Shown in pieces: positions 1,651 through 21,158 of a stretch of 36,896 bases of DNA. A model generated the notes under the pieces. It made no database searches. It had not been told where the DNA came from and saw only the letters and a program-made list of their open reading frames with translations. The DNA is taken from NCBI GenBank assembly GCA_022784805.1, contig JALFYG010000131.1, positions 1 to 36,896 of the forward strand, written 5' to 3'. This DNA is from Spirochaetales bacterium (lineage in GTDB: Bacteria; Spirochaetota; Spirochaetia; Sphaerochaetales; Sphaerochaetaceae). Position numbers and translations under genes: made by a program. Positions within the stretch are counted from its first letter, which is position 1. Each line of letters opens with the position of its first letter.

Positions 1651-2170
1651 CCTCAACCTCCTTTCCACAGGGGGAACCATCAAGGAATATAAAGTCTTCC
1701 AGGAGATCGTCCCAATGGGTAGTTGTCTGATTACTTCCCAAGACAACTCCATCGCCCCATATTTCAGTCACCAAGAAATAATAGCCATTTTCGCAATCCA
1801 TCAGCCAGATTCCATGATTAGACAGGAAGTAATCTTCTTTTTCTAGCCGACTTTCAACACTTAGGTATGAGTTAAAAAACTCCCGTCCATCTTGAAACTG
1901 AACATACTTCGGTTTAGGCTCTTTCTTCTTGACGATGATGCAAGTCCAACTAGAAGGAGCAGAAACAACAAATTCATTTACATAAAACGGTTGTTCTTCA
2001 TCTCCTAAATCCAATTTCTTTAAATAGCCTAAATATGCTTTGTTGTTATTCTTTGCTGCATTTAAACAGCTTGCTGGTGTGTCAGCAAAATATACTTCCT
2101 TACCAATCGCATTTTTCGCTTCTTCGCTTGTCGGATCTATGATTATGTCCTTATATGTATATTCAGCCAT
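1643..2170 (-). CDS. Hypothetical protein
   Basis: 175-aa ORF, overlapping start/stop with neighbours. Confidence 0.55.
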   Translation of the reverse strand: MAEYTYKDIIIDPTSEEAKNAIGKEVYFADTPASCLNAAKNNNKAYLGYLKKLDLGDEEQPFYVNEFVVSAPSSWTCIIVKKKEPKPKYVQFQDGREFFNSYLSVESRLEKEDYFLSNHGIWLMDCENGYYFLVTEIWGDGVVLGSNQTTTHWDDLLEDFIFLDGSPCGKEVEDE

Positions 2171-2660
2171 TGTTTTCCTCCTTAATCTTTTTCTTCCTTT
2201 CTTCCTTAACCTTATCTACGTAGAACAAATCCTCAATCCAGTATGGATATTTCCCTTTTTTCTTTAGAAATCTCTTGAGTTTTCCTTTGGGGTCATACTT
2301 CTTGAAAAACCTAAGCAATTCACATCGTCCATATTCCAAGTCCATCAAATAAAGTTCCTCATAGTGTTCCCATGCCATTTTTACATGTTCCTTATCCCAA
2401 TATCCTATCTCTTCGCCTTTAGCAATTTTCTCTTTGAGTTCTTCTTCAAGCTCTATGGCATGTTCGTATTCGGATATGATTCTATATGAGAAAGGTTCCG
2501 AAAGCACAAATTCCTGCCAATCATTCAGAAGAGCCAACATTTCTTGCGAATACGGACATCCGCACCCGTCTTCGCAATTAAACTCGTAGGGATCAATACC
2601 GCAATTACAGTCCTCATTGTTATAGCTTAGATAACAACAATCCTCGCACTTGTTCCTCAT
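2163..2660 (-). CDS. Hypothetical protein, Cys-rich N-terminus
   Basis: 165-aa ORF MRNKCEDCCYLSYNNEDCNCG... Confidence 0.55.
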   Translation of the reverse strand: MRNKCEDCCYLSYNNEDCNCGIDPYEFNCEDGCGCPYSQEMLALLNDWQEFVLSEPFSYRIISEYEHAIELEEELKEKIAKGEEIGYWDKEHVKMAWEHYEELYLMDLEYGRCELLRFFKKYDPKGKLKRFLKKKGKYPYWIEDLFYVDKVKEERKKKIKEENNG

Positions 2661-2866
2661 ATACTTTCCTCATCCTTGTAAGGTTCTGGGTTATCCATCC
2701 ATGCAGTGACATGAGCCCATTTACTTCCTCTTCCTAGTGTAAATGGGGCGTAGTGCAGGTAATGTGTAAATGGTTTTACACCAACAACTAAAGTTACTAA
2801 ATAATCACCTTCTTTTGGTGGCTTCTCCTTTGGATAAGGGTGCCATTTCACATTGATTTCATTCAT
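2657..2866 (-). CDS. DUF551-like small protein
   Basis: VKWHPYPKEKPPKEGDYLVT...AWMDNPEPY. Confidence 0.6.
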   Translation of the reverse strand: MNEINVKWHPYPKEKPPKEGDYLVTLVVGVKPFTHYLHYAPFTLGRGSKWAHVTAWMDNPEPYKDEESI

Positions 2867-3290
2867 CGCAATTCTCCTTTTCTTTTTCTGCTGTACCGCC
2901 CCAAATATTCAAAAGTTCCAATAAAAAAATGTTTGCATTGCGGAATATATCCTTACAATAAGTGTTGATATTCTTGGTTTCAGTAACCAACATTCCGTAG
3001 GAGTCAAGTTCTTCCACTATATCCTTTATTTCGCCCAATTCTTGAAGCAACCTGGACATTGCAGAAAGGACGTTCGACATGTAAGAATATTTGTTGTCTT
3101 CAAAATCGACGGTTATCGCTGTCTGTATTCCTTCCCTTATATATTTCTTGTTCTTCTTTTCAGTTAAATCTATATACAAGTGAAGATTTTTACATAAATC
3201 GCAATCTTTCACCGGTCCTTCTATATCTACCAGCTGATGTTCATCGCACTTGCCAAAAGGACATTTGTCCGGTTCGTATCTAAAATTCAT
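2859..3290 (-). CDS. Hypothetical protein with CxxC motifs
   Basis: 143-aa ORF; overlaps neighbour start. Confidence 0.5.
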   Translation of the reverse strand: MNFRYEPDKCPFGKCDEHQLVDIEGPVKDCDLCKNLHLYIDLTEKKNKKYIREGIQTAITVDFEDNKYSYMSNVLSAMSRLLQELGEIKDIVEELDSYGMLVTETKNINTYCKDIFRNANIFLLELLNIWGGTAEKEKENCDE

Positions 3291-3302
3291 ACTTCCTCCT
3301 TC

Positions 3303-3533
3303 CTATTCCCGTTCGTATCCCAGGAACTCGACCATATCCACGATGTTGTAGCTCTGGTGAGTCCTGCTGCACCATTGGATATCTACCTTCGGATGGTCGT
3401 CTATGACCTCTTCCCTGAACTTGCACGAGATACAGCTGTTGCACCTGAACCATGCTATGAGGGCCGGCTTGCTTATGGTATCCAACAGCGGTTTGTCTAC
3501 TATCGGCTTTGAAATGTACGTCTTTTCCTTCAT
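3303..3533 (-). CDS. Small Cys-containing hypothetical protein
   Basis: ORF starting MKEKTYISK; FRCNSCISCKF motif. The alternative overlapping ORF 3280-3648 is less plausible. Confidence 0.45.
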   Translation of the reverse strand: MKEKTYISKPIVDKPLLDTISKPALIAWFRCNSCISCKFREEVIDDHPKVDIQWCSRTHQSYNIVDMVEFLGYERE

Positions 3534-3550
3534 TCTTGTTCTTCCTCCTT

Positions 3551-3733
3551 TCAATCAAATAGATCACCCTGCTTCGCCCGGTTATCCAGATGCAAATAAT
3601 CTTCAAGTTCGATATCCAGCATCTTCTCCAACTTCTTCGATTCAGCAAGAACGCTTCTATCGTATCTCTTGAAGTATTCCTTCTGTTTCTGTCTTACGTT
3701 GTATGCAAGTTCGATTATTTCTCTCTCAGTCAT
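3551..3733 (-). CDS. Small hypothetical protein
   Basis: 60-aa ORF MTEREIIELAYNVRQ..., overlaps stop of upstream small ORF. Confidence 0.45.
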   Translation of the reverse strand: MTEREIIELAYNVRQKQKEYFKRYDRSVLAESKKLEKMLDIELEDYLHLDNRAKQGDLFD

Positions 3734-3893
3734 GGTTTTCCTCCTGGTCTCTTCTTCTTTCGGCTTCGTATTCTTCTTTCATCAGCTTCACCTTGGCTCT
3801 TTCAAGAGCCTTGAGAAAACGTTCTGTCTTATCTTCGATAGATTCATACGCATTTCTGTCGTATGCGTTCTTCTGTCTTTCGTAATACGTCAT
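3726..3893 (-). CDS. 55-aa highly charged hypothetical protein (not in supplied track)
   Basis: Hand translation MTYYERQKNAYDRNAYESIEDKTERFLKALERAKVKLMKEEYEAERRRDQEENHD*; overlapping starts/stops with both neighbours. Confidence 0.45.
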   Translation of the reverse strand: MTYYERQKNAYDRNAYESIEDKTERFLKALERAKVKLMKEEYEAERRRDQEENHD

Positions 3894-4159
3894 TCCTCCG
3901 CCTCTATCCTCTTCATCTGCCTATCCAACTTGTAGTTGATACAGTCTTCGATGTCGCATCTGTCTATCTTGGCTAGATAGATAATCTGCTCTATCATGAT
4001 CTCCACATCTGCTATCTCTTCGATGATCCCGACTGTTGTTCCCTTCCTTGCTGAGTGACTTGCTTCCACCGCTAACTCGGAACATTCCTCTGCTAACTGT
4101 CTCAACTGTTTCTTGATTCCGTAGTGGTCTGCTATCATTTGTAGTTTATCTTTTTCCAT
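3890..4159 (-). CDS. MazG-like nucleotide pyrophosphohydrolase family protein
   Basis: QLAEECSELAVEASH...IIEEIADVEIMIEQIIYLAKI pattern (EExxE...EExxD). RBS GGAGAAT directly after the end of the repeat array. Confidence 0.75.
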   Translation of the reverse strand: MEKDKLQMIADHYGIKKQLRQLAEECSELAVEASHSARKGTTVGIIEEIADVEIMIEQIIYLAKIDRCDIEDCINYKLDRQMKRIEAEE

Positions 4160-4177
4160 TATTATTCTCCTTAAAAT

Positions 4178-6247
4178 TTCACTCTACAATGTAGGGCTTC
4201 TTATTTGTTCAGATTCAATAGCTTAGGATAAGACGGTGGTGTGGTTCACTTTCCTCTGATGGGTTTCTTACCTTAAATAATTCACTTGACTACTTCGGGT
4301 TTTTTGTTGATCTTGATTCACTTACAAAACTTAGGTTTCTTATGAACTGTGGTTCACTTTTCCATGATAGATTTCTTTACTTTGAGTGGTTCACTTATTC
4401 TGGCATGAATTTTTATCCTTCTTTGATTCACTTTAGGGCTGTGGAATCATTTAAGACGAGTGACTCACTTTTATAATATGGATTTATTCACATCTTAAAT
4501 TACTTTCATCCTATAAGTTTAATAAACTAAGATGGTTCACTATGGTTTGTTTGGCTGCTTACACTTCCTGCTTCATTTTTAATTGCTGGTTTTCTTTCAA
4601 TATTTGATTCACTTTTGTAAACTGGGTTTCTCTTTTTTAATGGTTCACTATGATTTATTGGATTTCTTAACCTTCTTGATTCACTTTTACTTTTAATTTT
4701 TTATGATTGGCTCATTCCTGCAATTTATAAAACAATTCGATACGCTGATTTTCACTGTGTTTATTTTAACAACGGCACGCTTCGCTCCAATATCATACAT
4801 CTTGTTTTTGACTCACTTTTTATTTAGGGTTTCTCCAAGAATTAGATTCACTTCAATCTTAATGTTTTCTATAGTCACGATTCACTTTAACAACACGTTT
4901 TTATTCATGATATGATTCACAGTTTCAATGTGTATTCATCAATCAGCTTGGTTCACTTTACAAACTTTGGGTTTATTAATCTTTATGGTTCACTTGGAGG
5001 AAATGTTTTTATTTGTGATTGCGGTTCACTTCTTTGTCTTAAACTTCTTGATATTTTTGCTTCACTTGGCATCATTGGATTTATTCATATTTCTGGTTCA
5101 CTTCTTGAGGTTGGCTTTCTTTGCTTTTCCTAGGTTCACTTTTTTTAAATAGGTTTCTCGAACCATTTGATTCACTTGCGAGTCCGTATTAATTTACCTA
5201 GACAATTCATTTTATTTATTTGGATTACTTTTGCAGACGATCCATTTGTTATCTCTATTTTTGTAATTCTTTATGATTCACTGATAAATTGAGTATCCAT
5301 TAATACCTATGATCCACTAATGTCTGCGATTTTATTTGAACTTCTGATTCACTTGTTTTTACAGGATTTTTTCAAAACACTGATTCACTTGGCTATCTAA
5401 GTTTATTACGCTGATGATTCACTTTAAAATCTTGTATTCTTTGCTATTTGTGGTTCACTTTGCATAATTAGATTCCTTATTTTCTATAGTTCACTTTACT
5501 TTCCTAAGTCTATTTATAAAATGTAGTTCACTTCTTCATGACAGTTTTATTTTTAATCATGATTCACTCTTTAAACCCAGGTTTATGACTCGTTTTGATT
5601 CACTTCCACTATTTAAGTTTTTTAAACAGTGTAATTCACTTCTTCCTCCCTGAGTTTATATAAGAAATGGTTCACTTTGTTAATTTGGTTTTCTTAGATA
5701 TCTAGGTTCACTTTCGATAACTGTGTTTATTAGCCTGAATGATTCATTTCCTCCTTGTAGATTTATTAAACGATGTGATTCACTGTTTTTCTTTAGGTTT
5801 CTTGATGAACTTTGATTCACTTTTACCAAGTAGATTTTTTTATGTCTATAGTTCACTTCTATTTGGAGGTTTTTTCGTTTTCATGATTCACTAGGTGGGG
5901 ATGGATTTATCCAAATGGCTGATTCAATTATTTGATTTGATTTCATTTTGTATTTTGGTTCACTTCTTCTTAATAAGTTTCTAGATATGAATGATTCACT
6001 TATTTTACCAGGGTTAATTTGGGATACTGAATTCACTTGGTAGAGTTGGTTTTCTTCATGACTCAAATCCGCTTAAACATTATAAGTTTCTTTAGTGCTT
6101 TGATTCACTTGTTTTATCTGTTTTTATTTAAATCATCAATTCATTCTTATTACTTGGGTTTATTGGCATCAGCGATTCACTTTTAAACTCTAAAGTTATC
6201 ACCCACTGTAATTCACTTTGCATAATTGGTTTTATTATTTTCTATAA
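4178..6247. repeat. Dual-repeat/dual-spacer direct repeat array, interpreted as a TIGR (tandem interspaced guide RNA) array
   Basis: About 58 units by hand parsing; roughly two thirds of start-to-start intervals are exactly 36 bp and most others 34-38. Unit (+ strand): TGRTTCACTT, ~9 nt variable, RGTTTMTT, ~9 nt variable. Variable halves differ between units. No coding frame survives. Confidence 0.85.
4215..4239 (+). repeat. Left arm of inverted repeat bounding the array
   Basis: GGATAAGACGGTGG (4226-4239) is the exact reverse complement of CCACCGTCTTATCC at 6252-6265. Weaker similarity extends outward (TCAAT.AGC). Confidence 0.9.
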
Positions 6248-6251
6248 TTTT

Positions 6252-6279
6252 CCACCGTCTTATCCTTCGCTGAATTGAT
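6252..6279 (-). repeat. Right arm of inverted repeat bounding the array
   Basis: CCACCGTCTTATCC (6252-6265) then ttcGCTgaATTGAT; see left arm. Confidence 0.9.
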
Positions 6280-6305
6280 AAAAATCTTAATCAAACAATG
6301 TCTGA

Positions 6306-6746
6306 TTATCCTTGGAAATCCTTCATGTAGAGAGCCAATACGCTTGGGAATGGCGCCCCTACATTATGATCTCCAAACTTCACTCTTCCTTTGATGAAGA
6401 AGAGCGTCGCCTTGCCCTGCACCCAATCCCACCACCATTTCGTATCTGTACGAGCTGGCAGGAGCATGAGTACAAAACTGTTGTATTCCTTCTGCGACTC
6501 CTCATAAGCTTTCTTGACCCATGACGAGATTTCTCTTCCATAGGGAGGGTTGCACCACACCCCCCCCCTCCAAGGTTTTGAGAGTCCGTCATCCTTTGGC
6601 GTATAGTAGCTTTCACACTTCGTGTTCTCTGGCAATGCACATGCATCAAGAGAGAAGTTGAATATCGAAGAGATTCTGTCGAAAAGATATTTCGGTGTCT
6701 CTGCCACTATGTTTCCAGTAGATGTAAGACCTTTGGTCATATTCAT
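6306..6746 (-). CDS. dam: Phage DNA N-6-adenine methyltransferase (Dam-like family)
   Basis: FNFSLDACALPENTKCESYYTPKDDGLSKPW...VWCNPPYGREISSWVKKAYEE...LLPARTDTKWW: NPPY and family signature. Confidence 0.9.
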   Translation of the reverse strand: MNMTKGLTSTGNIVAETPKYLFDRISSIFNFSLDACALPENTKCESYYTPKDDGLSKPWRGGVWCNPPYGREISSWVKKAYEESQKEYNSFVLMLLPARTDTKWWWDWVQGKATLFFIKGRVKFGDHNVGAPFPSVLALYMKDFQG

Positions 6747-6755
6747 AAATACCTC

Positions 6756-7035
6756 TTAAAACAACTCAGGCTGCCACGGTATCTTGTCTGACTTGTCTTC
6801 AGTAATAGGGTGGGAGAGTGCATACTCTATACTTTCTCCTATCCATCGAACTACAGGAACGCAGAAGCTATTTCCTAAAGCCTTATACCTATGACTGTCG
6901 GGAGCATGCTCTGCATTAGACCATGGTATATCCGTATAGTCATCAGGAAACCCCTGCAGCCTCCCATCCCAAAGTTTTCCATGCCACTGTCGCAGCCTCT
7001 ATTCCGGAGAAGAGGGAAAGGTATCTCAGATTCAC
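6756..7035 (-). pseudogene. dcm: C5-cytosine DNA methyltransferase remnant, internally deleted and frame-shifted
   Basis: From GTG at 7035: (M)NLRYLSLFSGIEAATVAWKTLGWEAA (motif I) then, in another frame, LQGFPDDYTDIPWSNAEHAPDSHRYKALGNSFCVPVVRWIGESIEYA...* (motifs IX-X). The entire middle is missing. Confidence 0.88.
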
Positions 7036-8240
7036 ATCTCACCTCTCATGATTGCATCGGAGATTCTAGGCATTGAAGTCTTGTGCCCGAGATACTCCTC
7101 CTGATAAGGCACTCTTACTGAAAGCCCTTCCAGTTTTCTCCAAACGTCATATAGATCCTGAAGGAATATCTTTATCATGTATCTGCATGCAGCCATGTTT
7201 ATATGAGCCTTTCCTTCATCCTTCCACTTTTTTGACTCGTCTCCATTAACGGGCTTCTCAGAGTTCATCAACCTATTCTTGTAGGAATCATAGTAAATTC
7301 TATATTGACTATTGGCCTTAAGCATACATGATGCCAATACACCCATAAGCTTTGACTTTAAGTTTGCATTGTATGGAATAAGATAACCCTTGGTTCTTTT
7401 GTCTCCTCTGACCATCTCATCACTAAGAATGATATTACCGTCCTTATCTTTCTTCTTTCCCGGTCTTAGTCCAGGGTTGAGTCCTGCATACTGGATAATC
7501 TTAGAGGGGGTGTCAGCCTTGTAAATGTCTATGGTAGAGATGATGATTGCTGAAAGGGCGGGGCCACAACCCTTTACCTTGGAGAGAAACTCGGTATAGA
7601 TAGGGAACTTCTCGACCTCAGTCTTGATTGTAGCGAAGATTTCATCCTCCATCTCCTTTGCAGTATCAAGAACGTTTCTTATCTGTGGAATCTCTTCTTC
7701 GGGAAGAATTGCATCATCTTTGTTCTGATCTGTTCCATCTGCTTTTTTGGAAAGTCTGTTGGACGTTCTTATTCTCAAATCCTGATAATCATATACCACC
7801 TGGACAAGCTTTCTAAGCTTCTCCCTGGATACTTCCATATCCTTGTTTTTTTTGTTCTCAATAGTCTTGTTCTTTCTTTTTGCTACAGTAAGGAGAGCTT
7901 TTGCAAGAGCCTCTTCATAAGATAGTGTTTCATCCAGCTTCATACTATCCTGTGCAATTTTAAAAACTGATTTCATACTGTCATCACCAAGCTTTTTAAG
8001 CTTTGGGTCAATGACAATCTCTTCTTTCTTTTCAGATTCAACACTCTTATTTGAGGACTTTTTCTTATTGGAAGCTTTTTCATTAGAAACAGATTTTGAA
8101 TTTCTATTTTTTTCAATAGGTTTAATTTCTGTTTCCTCTTCCAAGAAATTCTCCGCTTCTCTGATTTCCTCAAATTCCTTTCTGATGTCCAAAATCTCTT
8201 TCTGCATTTCCTGTGCATCGGTGTTTTTTTGTCTTTCCAT
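7032..8240 (-). CDS. IS110 Transposase_20/Nop-like domain protein without recognisable nuclease domain; candidate TIGR-associated protein (TasA-like)
   Basis: AGGAG RBS before MERQKNTDAQ. Lys-rich N-terminus, helical segment, then FLSKVKGCGPALSAIIISTIDIYKADTPSKIIQYAGLNPGLRPGKKK...KGYLIPYNANLKSKLMGVLASCMLKANSQYRIYYDSYKNRL. No DEDD/RuvC or HNH motif seen. Confidence 0.8.
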   Translation of the reverse strand: MERQKNTDAQEMQKEILDIRKEFEEIREAENFLEEETEIKPIEKNRNSKSVSNEKASNKKKSSNKSVESEKKEEIVIDPKLKKLGDDSMKSVFKIAQDSMKLDETLSYEEALAKALLTVAKRKNKTIENKKNKDMEVSREKLRKLVQVVYDYQDLRIRTSNRLSKKADGTDQNKDDAILPEEEIPQIRNVLDTAKEMEDEIFATIKTEVEKFPIYTEFLSKVKGCGPALSAIIISTIDIYKADTPSKIIQYAGLNPGLRPGKKKDKDGNIILSDEMVRGDKRTKGYLIPYNANLKSKLMGVLASCMLKANSQYRIYYDSYKNRLMNSEKPVNGDESKKWKDEGKAHINMAACRYMIKIFLQDLYDVWRKLEGLSVRVPYQEEYLGHKTSMPRISDAIMRGEM

Positions 8241-8265
8241 ATTTTCTCCTTTAAAATTGTTTTGT

Positions 8266-8433
8266 TCAGTTGTTTGCAATAGATACGATTACTAATGCGA
8301 GTGCCATTACATCTATAAAGAGCAGTACATAGAACATTTTCTTTTCCCCCTTCACGCTCGCTCTTGCTGCAAGATACATAAGGCATGCCAACATTATGAA
8401 ATAGATGATCACCATGAATTCATATAAGGTCAT
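8266..8433 (-). CDS. 55-aa small membrane protein (not in supplied track)
   Basis: Hand translation MTLYEFMVIIYFIMLACLMYLAARASVKGEKKMFYVLLFIDVMALALVIVSIANN*; two hydrophobic segments. Confidence 0.5.
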   Translation of the reverse strand: MTLYEFMVIIYFIMLACLMYLAARASVKGEKKMFYVLLFIDVMALALVIVSIANN

Positions 8434-8732
8434 AGCTTGATTTCCTTGTCTGCTATTATGTTCATAGGCTCTGAAATTACGGTCTTTTTCGTTTCGGATA
8501 TGGGAGACTTATATTCCTTCTCCATTCTATCCAACTTGACACCGGTCTTATTCATCTCTTCAACCTTGTCTTCGAGTATCCTGAGCCTTTCCTTGATGCT
8601 CTCCATCATATCCCTAAGCCCGGTATACATATCCGATACGTGTCTATCCGACATATAGTCTATGTATCCGTAGATGCCGATGAGTACGACTGCAGCCGAA
8701 AGCCCTATCAATATTACAATGTATGCACTCAT
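8430..8732 (-). CDS. Single-TM, coiled-coil small protein
   Basis: MSAYIVILIGLSAAVVLIGIYGYIDYM then charged heptad-like region; AGGAGA RBS. Confidence 0.6.
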   Translation of the reverse strand: MSAYIVILIGLSAAVVLIGIYGYIDYMSDRHVSDMYTGLRDMMESIKERLRILEDKVEEMNKTGVKLDRMEKEYKSPISETKKTVISEPMNIIADKEIKL

Positions 8733-8787
8733 TTATTTTCTCCTTTAAATTCTTGTTTTTATTTGGTTACATGATGATATTAAAGGG

Positions 8788-8832
8788 AAAAATATCTGAT
8801 GTCAATATAAAAATATCAGAAACAGATAAAAT
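8788..8832. promoter_or_regulatory. Putative repressor operator/promoter region of the 8732-to-left operon
   Basis: aaatATCTGATgtcaatataaaaATATCAGaaaCAGATaaaat. The string AAATATCAGAAA also occurs in the immunity region at about 18873. Confidence 0.55.
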
Positions 8833-8855
8833 TTATTAAAAAAGAGAAAATAAAT

Positions 8856-8876
8856 AGCCGTAAAATTTTTACGGCT
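8856..8876 (-). terminator. Terminator downstream of minus-strand ORF 8892-9119
   Basis: Perfect inverted repeat AGCCGTAAAA / TTTTACGGCT with 1-nt centre; minus-strand T-rich tract follows (complement of aaaaaagagaaaata). Confidence 0.65.
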
Positions 8877-8891
8877 TGAATTTTGAGATTG

Positions 8892-9119
8892 TCATTTCTG
8901 ATGGACTTCTATCCTTACCTTGTTTCTGTTGTTCGGAGGATATATATCCAATCCTATTGTCGAAAGGAACCATTTGACTTCAATTATCTTGTCGAATATC
9001 CTCTCCGACTCGACAGGAGAAGAACAGTTCCTCGCTTTGAAATATCTCTCTGACAATCTGTCCTCCATCCTTCTGATGTCATCTTCTGAAATTGTTATGG
9101 TATGTTTGCTGCTTTCCAT
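8892..9119 (-). CDS. Small hypothetical protein
   Basis: MESSKHTITISEDDIRRMEDRLSERYFKARN...; GGAGG RBS. Confidence 0.5.
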   Translation of the reverse strand: MESSKHTITISEDDIRRMEDRLSERYFKARNCSSPVESERIFDKIIEVKWFLSTIGLDIYPPNNRNKVRIEVHQK

Positions 9120-9246
9120 ATGTTTTCCTCCAGGTTCAAAATATAATGACGTTCATGTGGTTTACAAACTTTTCGTTTGGTTTACAAATAAAATCCTATT
9201 GAATTAAAAAATCTTTGAATCTATACCATTCTTTTGGTTCTTGGAT

Positions 9247-9612
9247 TTACAGATGCATATCTACAAGTTCCTTCATATCCTCCAAGGATCTGATTACTGC
9301 ATATTCTATACCGCTTTGTATGCACATCTTTTGGAAAGTCTTCTGATGTTGTGTTTGTTTTCCTATCTCGGTCTTGCACTCTACATAACCAAGATAGGCA
9401 GGGTAAAATCTTTCCAAAGGAAAAGAGAAGGGCTTTAGAGGCCACCATACAACCAAGTCCGCTACACCAGATACAAGTCCTGCTGAAACAAGTTGAGCCT
9501 GCATCACTTTAGATCTTCCTCCGGCCTCATTAGGCACTGAGTGGCAGAAGATACCAAGGTGACGTAGATATTCTACACATTTATGTTGGATAACCAATTC
9601 TTCATTGTTCAT
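9247..9612 (-). CDS. VRR-NUC domain nuclease
   Basis: E..IQ....YLR..GIFCHSVPNEAGGRSK...GLVSGVADLVVW...YVECKTEIGKQTQHQKTFQKMC. Confidence 0.88.
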   Translation of the reverse strand: MNNEELVIQHKCVEYLRHLGIFCHSVPNEAGGRSKVMQAQLVSAGLVSGVADLVVWWPLKPFSFPLERFYPAYLGYVECKTEIGKQTQHQKTFQKMCIQSGIEYAVIRSLEDMKELVDMHL

Positions 9613-19818: not shown

Positions 19819-19913
19819 AGTGAAACAATTCGTTACATTGTAACGACTTATACATACTGTAAGTACCTCCTGTACCTTTGTATATATTGGCAAAGGTTAC
19901 GGAGGGTTTCGCT

Positions 19914-21158
19914 ATGTATCAGCAGAATGATGGACTGTGGTACTTCCGTTACAAGGATGAAAACGGAAAGTGGAGGACTTACTCGACACATACCAGGGAT
20001 GAGTCGGTTGCAATGGAATTGGAGAATCACTTCAAGCTGACTAAAGACTTGTTAAGGAATCCCAAGACAATAGAAGATCTTATTTCGATATTCTCTGACT
20101 CGAAGAGGAATCCCGAAAGGTTGGACTCCAAGATTACAGGCAAATCATACGGGGAGAGACACTCTGAAGAAGTTGCAAGAAACATGAGGGATTTGCTTTC
20201 TATGCTTAAGGCAAAGAGTATGGTATGGAGCATAAAGCTGAATAAACTCACAAGATTGGACTGCAAGCTGATAATGACCATGATACACAAGGAGTGGGGG
20301 AATACGTCAAAGGCCAACAAGATGTTTTCTCAGTTCAAGAGGTGTCTTACCTATGCTTCGGAACAAGGATGGCTTGACGCCTCTCCTGCAATCGGTATGA
20401 GTGATATCAAAGTGGAGCAGGAGAAAGAAGTAATACCAATGACTCCAAATGATATCGCAGAGATAATTTCAAGACCGAACCTCTTCAGATATTCGTACCC
20501 TGCATGCAATGGGAAGACGGAATCATTAAGAGAGGGAAGGATGGAAGAGGATTATACAATGTTCTGCCTTTTGGCTTATACCGGGATGAGAAGGGCAGAA
20601 GCGGCCGCATTGACATCAGGGCAGATTTGCAATGGCATATATAGAGGTAGGACTTTCCACTATATAGAGGTGAATAGGGCTTTTAAAGATGAATCATGGA
20701 ATGAAATTGGAAAACCGAAATGGAATCTTTGCCGTTCAATCCCAATCTGCGAGGAATTGTATTCGATATTGAAGCCTTATATAAAGAAGGATCCCGAAGC
20801 TCCGCTTTTCCCCGGTTATAAAAAGACGAGATTCGTACAGTTCTTTGAAAGACTAAAGGACAATGCGAAGATTGATGGAGTCATCTTTGAGGACGAAGAG
20901 GCGTTCGCCATGCTCTCGCCACATAAGCTTAGACATGCACTAAATACAAATCTTCTTGCAGAGCAAGGTGTAGAGGAAGGGAAGGTTTCAGAAAACATGG
21001 TTGCAGAGTATCTTTCATGGGAGCATCAAGACCAAAGTAAGATGCAAAGAAGATATACGCACATGGTCGCTTCGAGACTTCTTCCTGTCACAGATCTTAT
21101 ATCGAAGATATATTCGAGAAAAATCGAGTCTTCCATATTGACTGTATCGGCATTATAG
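19914..21158 (+). CDS. int: Tyrosine recombinase / phage integrase
   Basis: LLAYTGMRRAEAAAL; LSPHKLRHALNTNLL; RRYTHM catalytic boxes. Start MYQQNDGLWYF likely; the ORF as listed opens at 19878. Confidence 0.92.
   Translation: MYQQNDGLWYFRYKDENGKWRTYSTHTRDESVAMELENHFKLTKDLLRNPKTIEDLISIFSDSKRNPERLDSKITGKSYGERHSEEVARNMRDLLSMLKAKSMVWSIKLNKLTRLDCKLIMTMIHKEWGNTSKANKMFSQFKRCLTYASEQGWLDASPAIGMSDIKVEQEKEVIPMTPNDIAEIISRPNLFRYSYPACNGKTESLREGRMEEDYTMFCLLAYTGMRRAEAAALTSGQICNGIYRGRTFHYIEVNRAFKDESWNEIGKPKWNLCRSIPICEELYSILKPYIKKDPEAPLFPGYKKTRFVQFFERLKDNAKIDGVIFEDEEAFAMLSPHKLRHALNTNLLAEQGVEEGKVSENMVAEYLSWEHQDQSKMQRRYTHMVASRLLPVTDLISKIYSRKIESSILTVSAL

Follow-up and report, generated by a model that had tools for sequence, protein, structure and literature searches.

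The whole stretch of DNA analyzed here (36,896 nt, hereafter the window) forms one contig in the draft genome of a spirochaete and carries a temperate phage with a repressor and an integrase; the source genome is fragmented, its 2.37-Mb assembly being distributed over 307 contigs. An accessory block spanning approximately positions 2170-9247 comprises a tas gene, methyltransferases, an array of short repeated units and a MazG-like gene. The genes relevant to this analysis are the following:

3890-4159, minus strand: small MazG-like gene directly downstream of the array (weak Pfam match, below the cut-off)
6306-6746, minus strand: Dam-type adenine methyltransferase gene, between tas and the array (Pfam Dam, E 3e-28)
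7032-8279, minus strand: tas gene encoding a TasA-like protein of 415 aa, 0.8 kb upstream of the array
19878-21158: tyrosine integrase of the phage, 13 kb from the array

An apparent remnant of a C5-cytosine methyltransferase gene, with weak Pfam support, was also detected on the minus strand at 6756-7035; its N-terminal (MNLRYLSLFSGIEAATVAWKTLGWEAAG) and C-terminal (PDDYTDIPW...GNSF) pieces adjoin in different frames, the middle being missing. Two phages that are related to this one and share its host family (L345 and L344) have the neighbouring orthologues 0.2-1.7 kb apart, as compared with 7 kb here. The sequence of the closest phage relative (G031 C268, helicase 81%) stops before the tas-array locus, and comparison of the locus DNA with phages and plasmids revealed no similarity. 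Matching Tas proteins are present in named relatives, Sphaerochaeta and other Spirochaetales.

The assignment of the 7032-8279 gene to the Tas family relies on both sequence and predicted fold. Using phmmer, its product matched TasR (9mty) with an E value of 1.1e-13 and TasH with 9e-9, the Nop/Tas domain corresponding to the C-terminal 270 aa. An AlphaFold model of the C-terminal 269 residues (pLDDT 83) matched the TasH fold with an E value of 4.6e-10; TasH and TasR structures were the top 11 fold matches, followed by IS621. The N-terminal 146 residues (7842-8279) matched no known domain and no recombinase domain in Pfam, and for this reason the protein is best called TasA-like. Of note, this extension is rich in lysine and glutamate, and the spirochaete relatives are mostly of about 270 aa. 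By these sequence and model comparisons the tas gene and the array are a TIGR-Tas locus, since the gene next to the array encodes a Tas protein; the identity proposed for the array in an earlier note on this DNA, which had been made from the letters and open reading frames, is thus borne out by the Tas assignment and by the layout of the units.

The array is co-directional with tas, being read from 6254 to approximately 4176, and its units consist of an edge (AAGTGAAYCA), a 9-nt spacer A, a loop (approximately ATAAACC(T)) and a 9-nt spacer B. According to unit parsing, 38 of the 58 units are exactly 36 nt long; columns 1-10 and 19-28 are conserved, and columns 11-18 and 29-36, which correspond to spacers of 8-9 nt, are variable. 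The parts of the array and the two arms of the inverted pair discussed below are located as follows:

4176-6254, minus strand: TIGR array of approximately 58 units, mostly 34-38 nt long (unit parsing and column conservation)
6252-6271, minus strand: right arm, leader sequence AGCGAAGGATAAGACGGTGG (exact core 6252-6266)
6219-6254, minus strand: first unit, with a degenerate edge of the 5'-truncated type, TGGAAAATTA, at 6254-6245
4221-4251, minus strand: penultimate unit, 31 nt, with no recognisable loop repeat and the left arm between its two edges
4220-4239, plus strand: left arm AGCTTAGGATAAGACGGTGG, with an exact core at 4225-4239 and an orientation opposite to that of the right arm
4185-4220, minus strand: last complete unit, regular and of 36 nt, outside the left arm (unit parsing)
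4176-4184, minus strand: final truncated edge GAGTGAAAT, with the ribosome-binding site of the next gene following closely

The last complete unit displays all the expected elements (edge TATTGAATCT, spacer GAACAAATA, loop AGAAGCCC, spacer TACATTGTA and next edge GAGTGAAAT), and the same layout of a truncated final edge ahead of a ribosome-binding site precedes tas at two other loci (L142 and L143). The penultimate unit is the sole one of 31 nt and one of just two parsed without a loop. Moreover, the first unit and the unit at 5461-5496 have identical spacers A and B (TAGAAAATA and AATTATGCA; 18/18) and unlike loops. At 4722-4818 the array is irregular, the edges being poor and one unit being reduced to a remnant of 24 nt. 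No terminator-like site was found on the minus strand in 4000-8800, a Rho-independent terminator after the TIGR array being typical, not obligatory, according to PMC12045711. An Rfam search gave no match.

The earlier note had pointed to a 14-mer, GGATAAGACGGTGG at 4226-4239 of the plus strand, with its exact reverse complement at 6252-6265, and placed the two at the ends of the array. Both copies are exact. With up to 2 mismatches allowed, no further copy occurs in the window; in the 2.37-Mb assembly they are again the only exact ones, the sites that come closest differing at 2 positions. The identical stretch in fact covers 15 bp (AGGATAAGACGGTGG, 4225-4239 and 6252-6266), one base more than in the note. 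The arms of 20 nt (4220-4239 and 6252-6271) are 90% complementary (18/20). The outward similarity described in the same note is marginal (P = 0.039 in an anchored gapped alignment).

The placement at both ends is correct for one arm. The right arm lies at the 5' border, its 3 last bases overlapping the first, degenerate edge, while the left arm lies approximately 40-60 nt inside the array, where it fills the inter-edge (spacer and loop) stretch of the penultimate unit. Beyond it there are one complete regular 36-nt unit and the truncated edge; since a regular unit lies beyond, the left arm marks no array border.

Could two unrelated sequences have matched over 15 bp by accident? Under an order-2 Markov model (1500 runs) an exact inverted match of at least 15 anywhere in the array and its flanks had P = 0.004, and when the leader zone was compared with the last three units a match of at least 15 appeared in 0 of 3000 simulations, the longest being 13. 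Also against coincidence, the left arm falls on a loop-less unit. On the other hand, the window contains seven exact inverted pairs of at least 15 bp where approximately 0.9 would be expected, so that such pairs are not rare in it and what is unusual is the position of this one; furthermore, the association with the boundaries was picked post hoc, after the pair had been noticed, it is half true, and the outward similarity is marginal as given above. We judge a chance origin of the pair unlikely.

A misassembly at the repetitive array was considered as well, the assembly being a draft of 307 contigs. Neither arm is a multicopy repeat able to mislead an assembler, however, and the units around both arms stay in phase, which makes an artefact very improbable.

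We then compared the array with those of other Tas loci. A search with an alignment of 8 Tas proteins yielded 7 genome loci and 188 viral candidates; 80 of the latter were retained. Scans with single proteins gave no matches. Arrays were sought at these 80 viral and 7 genome loci and at nine loci from relatives of the host, some of which are among those 7. A total of 57 arrays including the one studied could be delimited, which are not 57 independent cases as some loci are near relatives; the 56 comparison arrays are related but distant, the closest having approximately 46% Tas identity. The studied array is the longest of the 57, the next having 39 units.

An inverted match of at least 12 nt in leader, array and trailer was displayed by the studied array and by 0 of the 56 others. 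Leader-trailer duplex energies were at background, with a median rank of 0.46 against mismatched pairings (56 arrays including the studied one), the studied array being the extreme. The 20-nt arm pattern (AGCNNAGGATAAGACGGTGG) had 0 matches in 2.9 million viral contigs. Because the other arrays have no such inverted match, leader and trailer pair at background level and the arm pattern found no match, the comparison of sequences does not support a general boundary repeat of TIGR arrays; absence from homologous arrays was the first of the observations named by the earlier note as speaking against its reading, and it is what was found in these related but distant arrays. The exact 14-mer was also searched in viral contigs and occurred in at least 120 stretches, with a single match at each listed locus; it is too short to serve as a test, and this search was uninformative.

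The same comparison bears on the proposal, also made in the earlier note, that the arms are the terminal inverted repeats of a mobile or invertible guide cassette. They do enclose nearly the whole array, and phages L344 and L345 have a short gap where the studied phage has the 7-kb block with tas and the array. Nevertheless, the left arm is internal, with a regular unit and the final edge outside, so the arms are not terminal repeats; no flanking direct repeats were seen by inspection; no invertase or transposase was detected among the proteins scanned, the tyrosine integrase of the phage being the only recombinase; array and tas have the same orientation in 57 of 57 arrays; and the accessory block exceeds such a cassette in size by far. 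We consider this proposal extremely improbable.

An alternative role would be that of a closing stem, in which the leader pairs with the penultimate unit and approximately 2 kb of guides are looped out, protecting, timing or directing the processing of the pre-tigRNA. Such pairing, suggested too by the earlier note, is thermodynamically possible: folding of the minus strand predicts a long-range stem with a pair probability of approximately 1, and the isolated duplex of 18/20 pairs is predicted at -32.9 kcal/mol. Also in its favor, no nuclease that processes tigRNAs is known (PMC12045711). However, any 15-bp complement in an A-rich RNA would fold alike, and none of the 56 other arrays has a stem of this kind, even though three TIGR systems that Faure et al. 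tested are processed in E. coli. In addition, the last regular unit would be left outside and the unit carrying the arm sacrificed. A closing stem is thus rather unlikely; the paired processing sites offered in the same note face the same two objections, being in no other array and leaving the last good unit outside.

The loop-less unit could alternatively act as a self-directed or antisense guide, that is, as a 31-nt RNA whose inter-edge stretch of 20-21 nt pairs with the leader transcript and tunes its own array. In agreement with this, the arm takes up one inter-edge stretch exactly, and the RNA could pair with the leader transcript in 18/20 nt. TIGR targeting, as described in PMC12045711, employs two 9-nt spacers on opposite strands with the loop repeat between them, whereas the match found here is continuous on one strand and runs through the loop position; spacer A matches in 7/9, spacer B does not conform to the rule, and the unit has no loop-box motif, which the second Tas subunit requires. 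Dual-spacer self-targets elsewhere in the window were no better than those of shuffled spacer pairs. We give this explanation a small probability.

The reading that we prefer, and to which we assign about an even chance, is that the pair is a lineage-specific inverted copy of the leader inside one unit, a private by-product of the evolution of the array and no designed boundary element. Approximately 20 bp of the array's own leader would have been copied, inverted, into one distal unit, where the copy would have replaced the spacers and loop of the recipient, the flanking edges remaining in place. In favor of this, the left arm takes up the inter-edge stretch of the penultimate unit from end to end, the 56 other arrays have no inverted match of at least 12 nt, their leader-trailer pairing is at background, and chance hardly accounts for the match within the array. 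The penultimate unit is the one that breaks the regularity of the array, and the arm sits between its edges; for these reasons the unit is taken as the probable copy and the leader as the probable source, so that copying would have run from leader to unit with the penultimate unit as the likely recipient. On the other side, a core of 15 bp without mismatches points to a recent event or to a copy that has been maintained, and no closer relative bearing the array was found.

Patchwork is also seen elsewhere, in the first unit together with that at 5461-5496 and at loci L192 and L212. A unit of L192 (L192:1893 and 2037) carries 15 nt of the tas 3' end in direct orientation, a copy missing from the near-identical sibling L189, and the first and last units of the L212 array (L212:6643 and 7062) have 21 nt in common in direct orientation. 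The copies at L192 and L212 are direct, not inverted, which speaks against a general process of inverted copying. Over all loci, copies of neighbour sequence in units were not enriched above the between-locus null; as such copying is not shown to be commoner than chance, the mechanism is one that we infer. A literature search on inverted duplication and template switching in CRISPR arrays found nothing.

As to its consequences, the degenerate unit probably works poorly as a guide, or not at all, because it has lost the loop repeat gripped by the second Tas subunit. The two copies would be able to pair across 2 kb in the precursor RNA, most likely as an incidental effect, and we infer that the inverted leader copy is probably without function.

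A further possibility is that the loop-less unit, with its inverted leader fragment flanked by two intact edges, is a snapshot of unit gain, in which local DNA would be copied between edges and the new unit would at first be loop-less; the L192 unit with the copy of the tas 3' end would then be a second snapshot. This has a slim probability; if true, it would bear on how TIGR arrays acquire units.

The TIGR-Tas family, discovered in 2025, gains a long array (approximately 58 units) and a Tas protein from this spirochaete prophage. The inverted pair is apparently no family-wide boundary signal, which may spare others from chasing one, and the irregular units of this array, L192 and L212 offer concrete cases in which array rearrangement can be studied.

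With regard to known systems, the fold of Tas is related to that of the RNA-guided recombinases of the IS110 family (IS621); Pfam detected no recombinase domain in the N-terminus of the Tas protein studied here, and short inverted arms within an array are not accounted for by IS110-family elements. In precursor rRNA, the leader and the trailer at the two ends of a long RNA form stems that serve in its processing. The pair described here likewise consists of complementary sequences towards the two ends of a precursor RNA which are able to pair; it differs from the rRNA stems in being present in one array only, in its length of 15-20 bp and in having its 3' arm inside the penultimate unit, and the pairing is a predicted one.

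A further comparison is with TIGR-Tas systems of the TasA type (Faure et al. 2025, PMC12045711). No mention of inverted boundary repeats was found in the parts of that description considered here. There as here, units of 36 nt are composed of edge, 9-nt spacer A, loop and 9-nt spacer B, a Tas/Nop protein is encoded next door, the location is in a phage, the first edge is degenerate and 5'-truncated and the last edge is 3'-truncated. The usual array has 5-15 units, compared with approximately 58 in the present one, which is also set apart by its loop-less unit with the putative inverted leader copy and by the methyltransferase genes lying between tas and the array.
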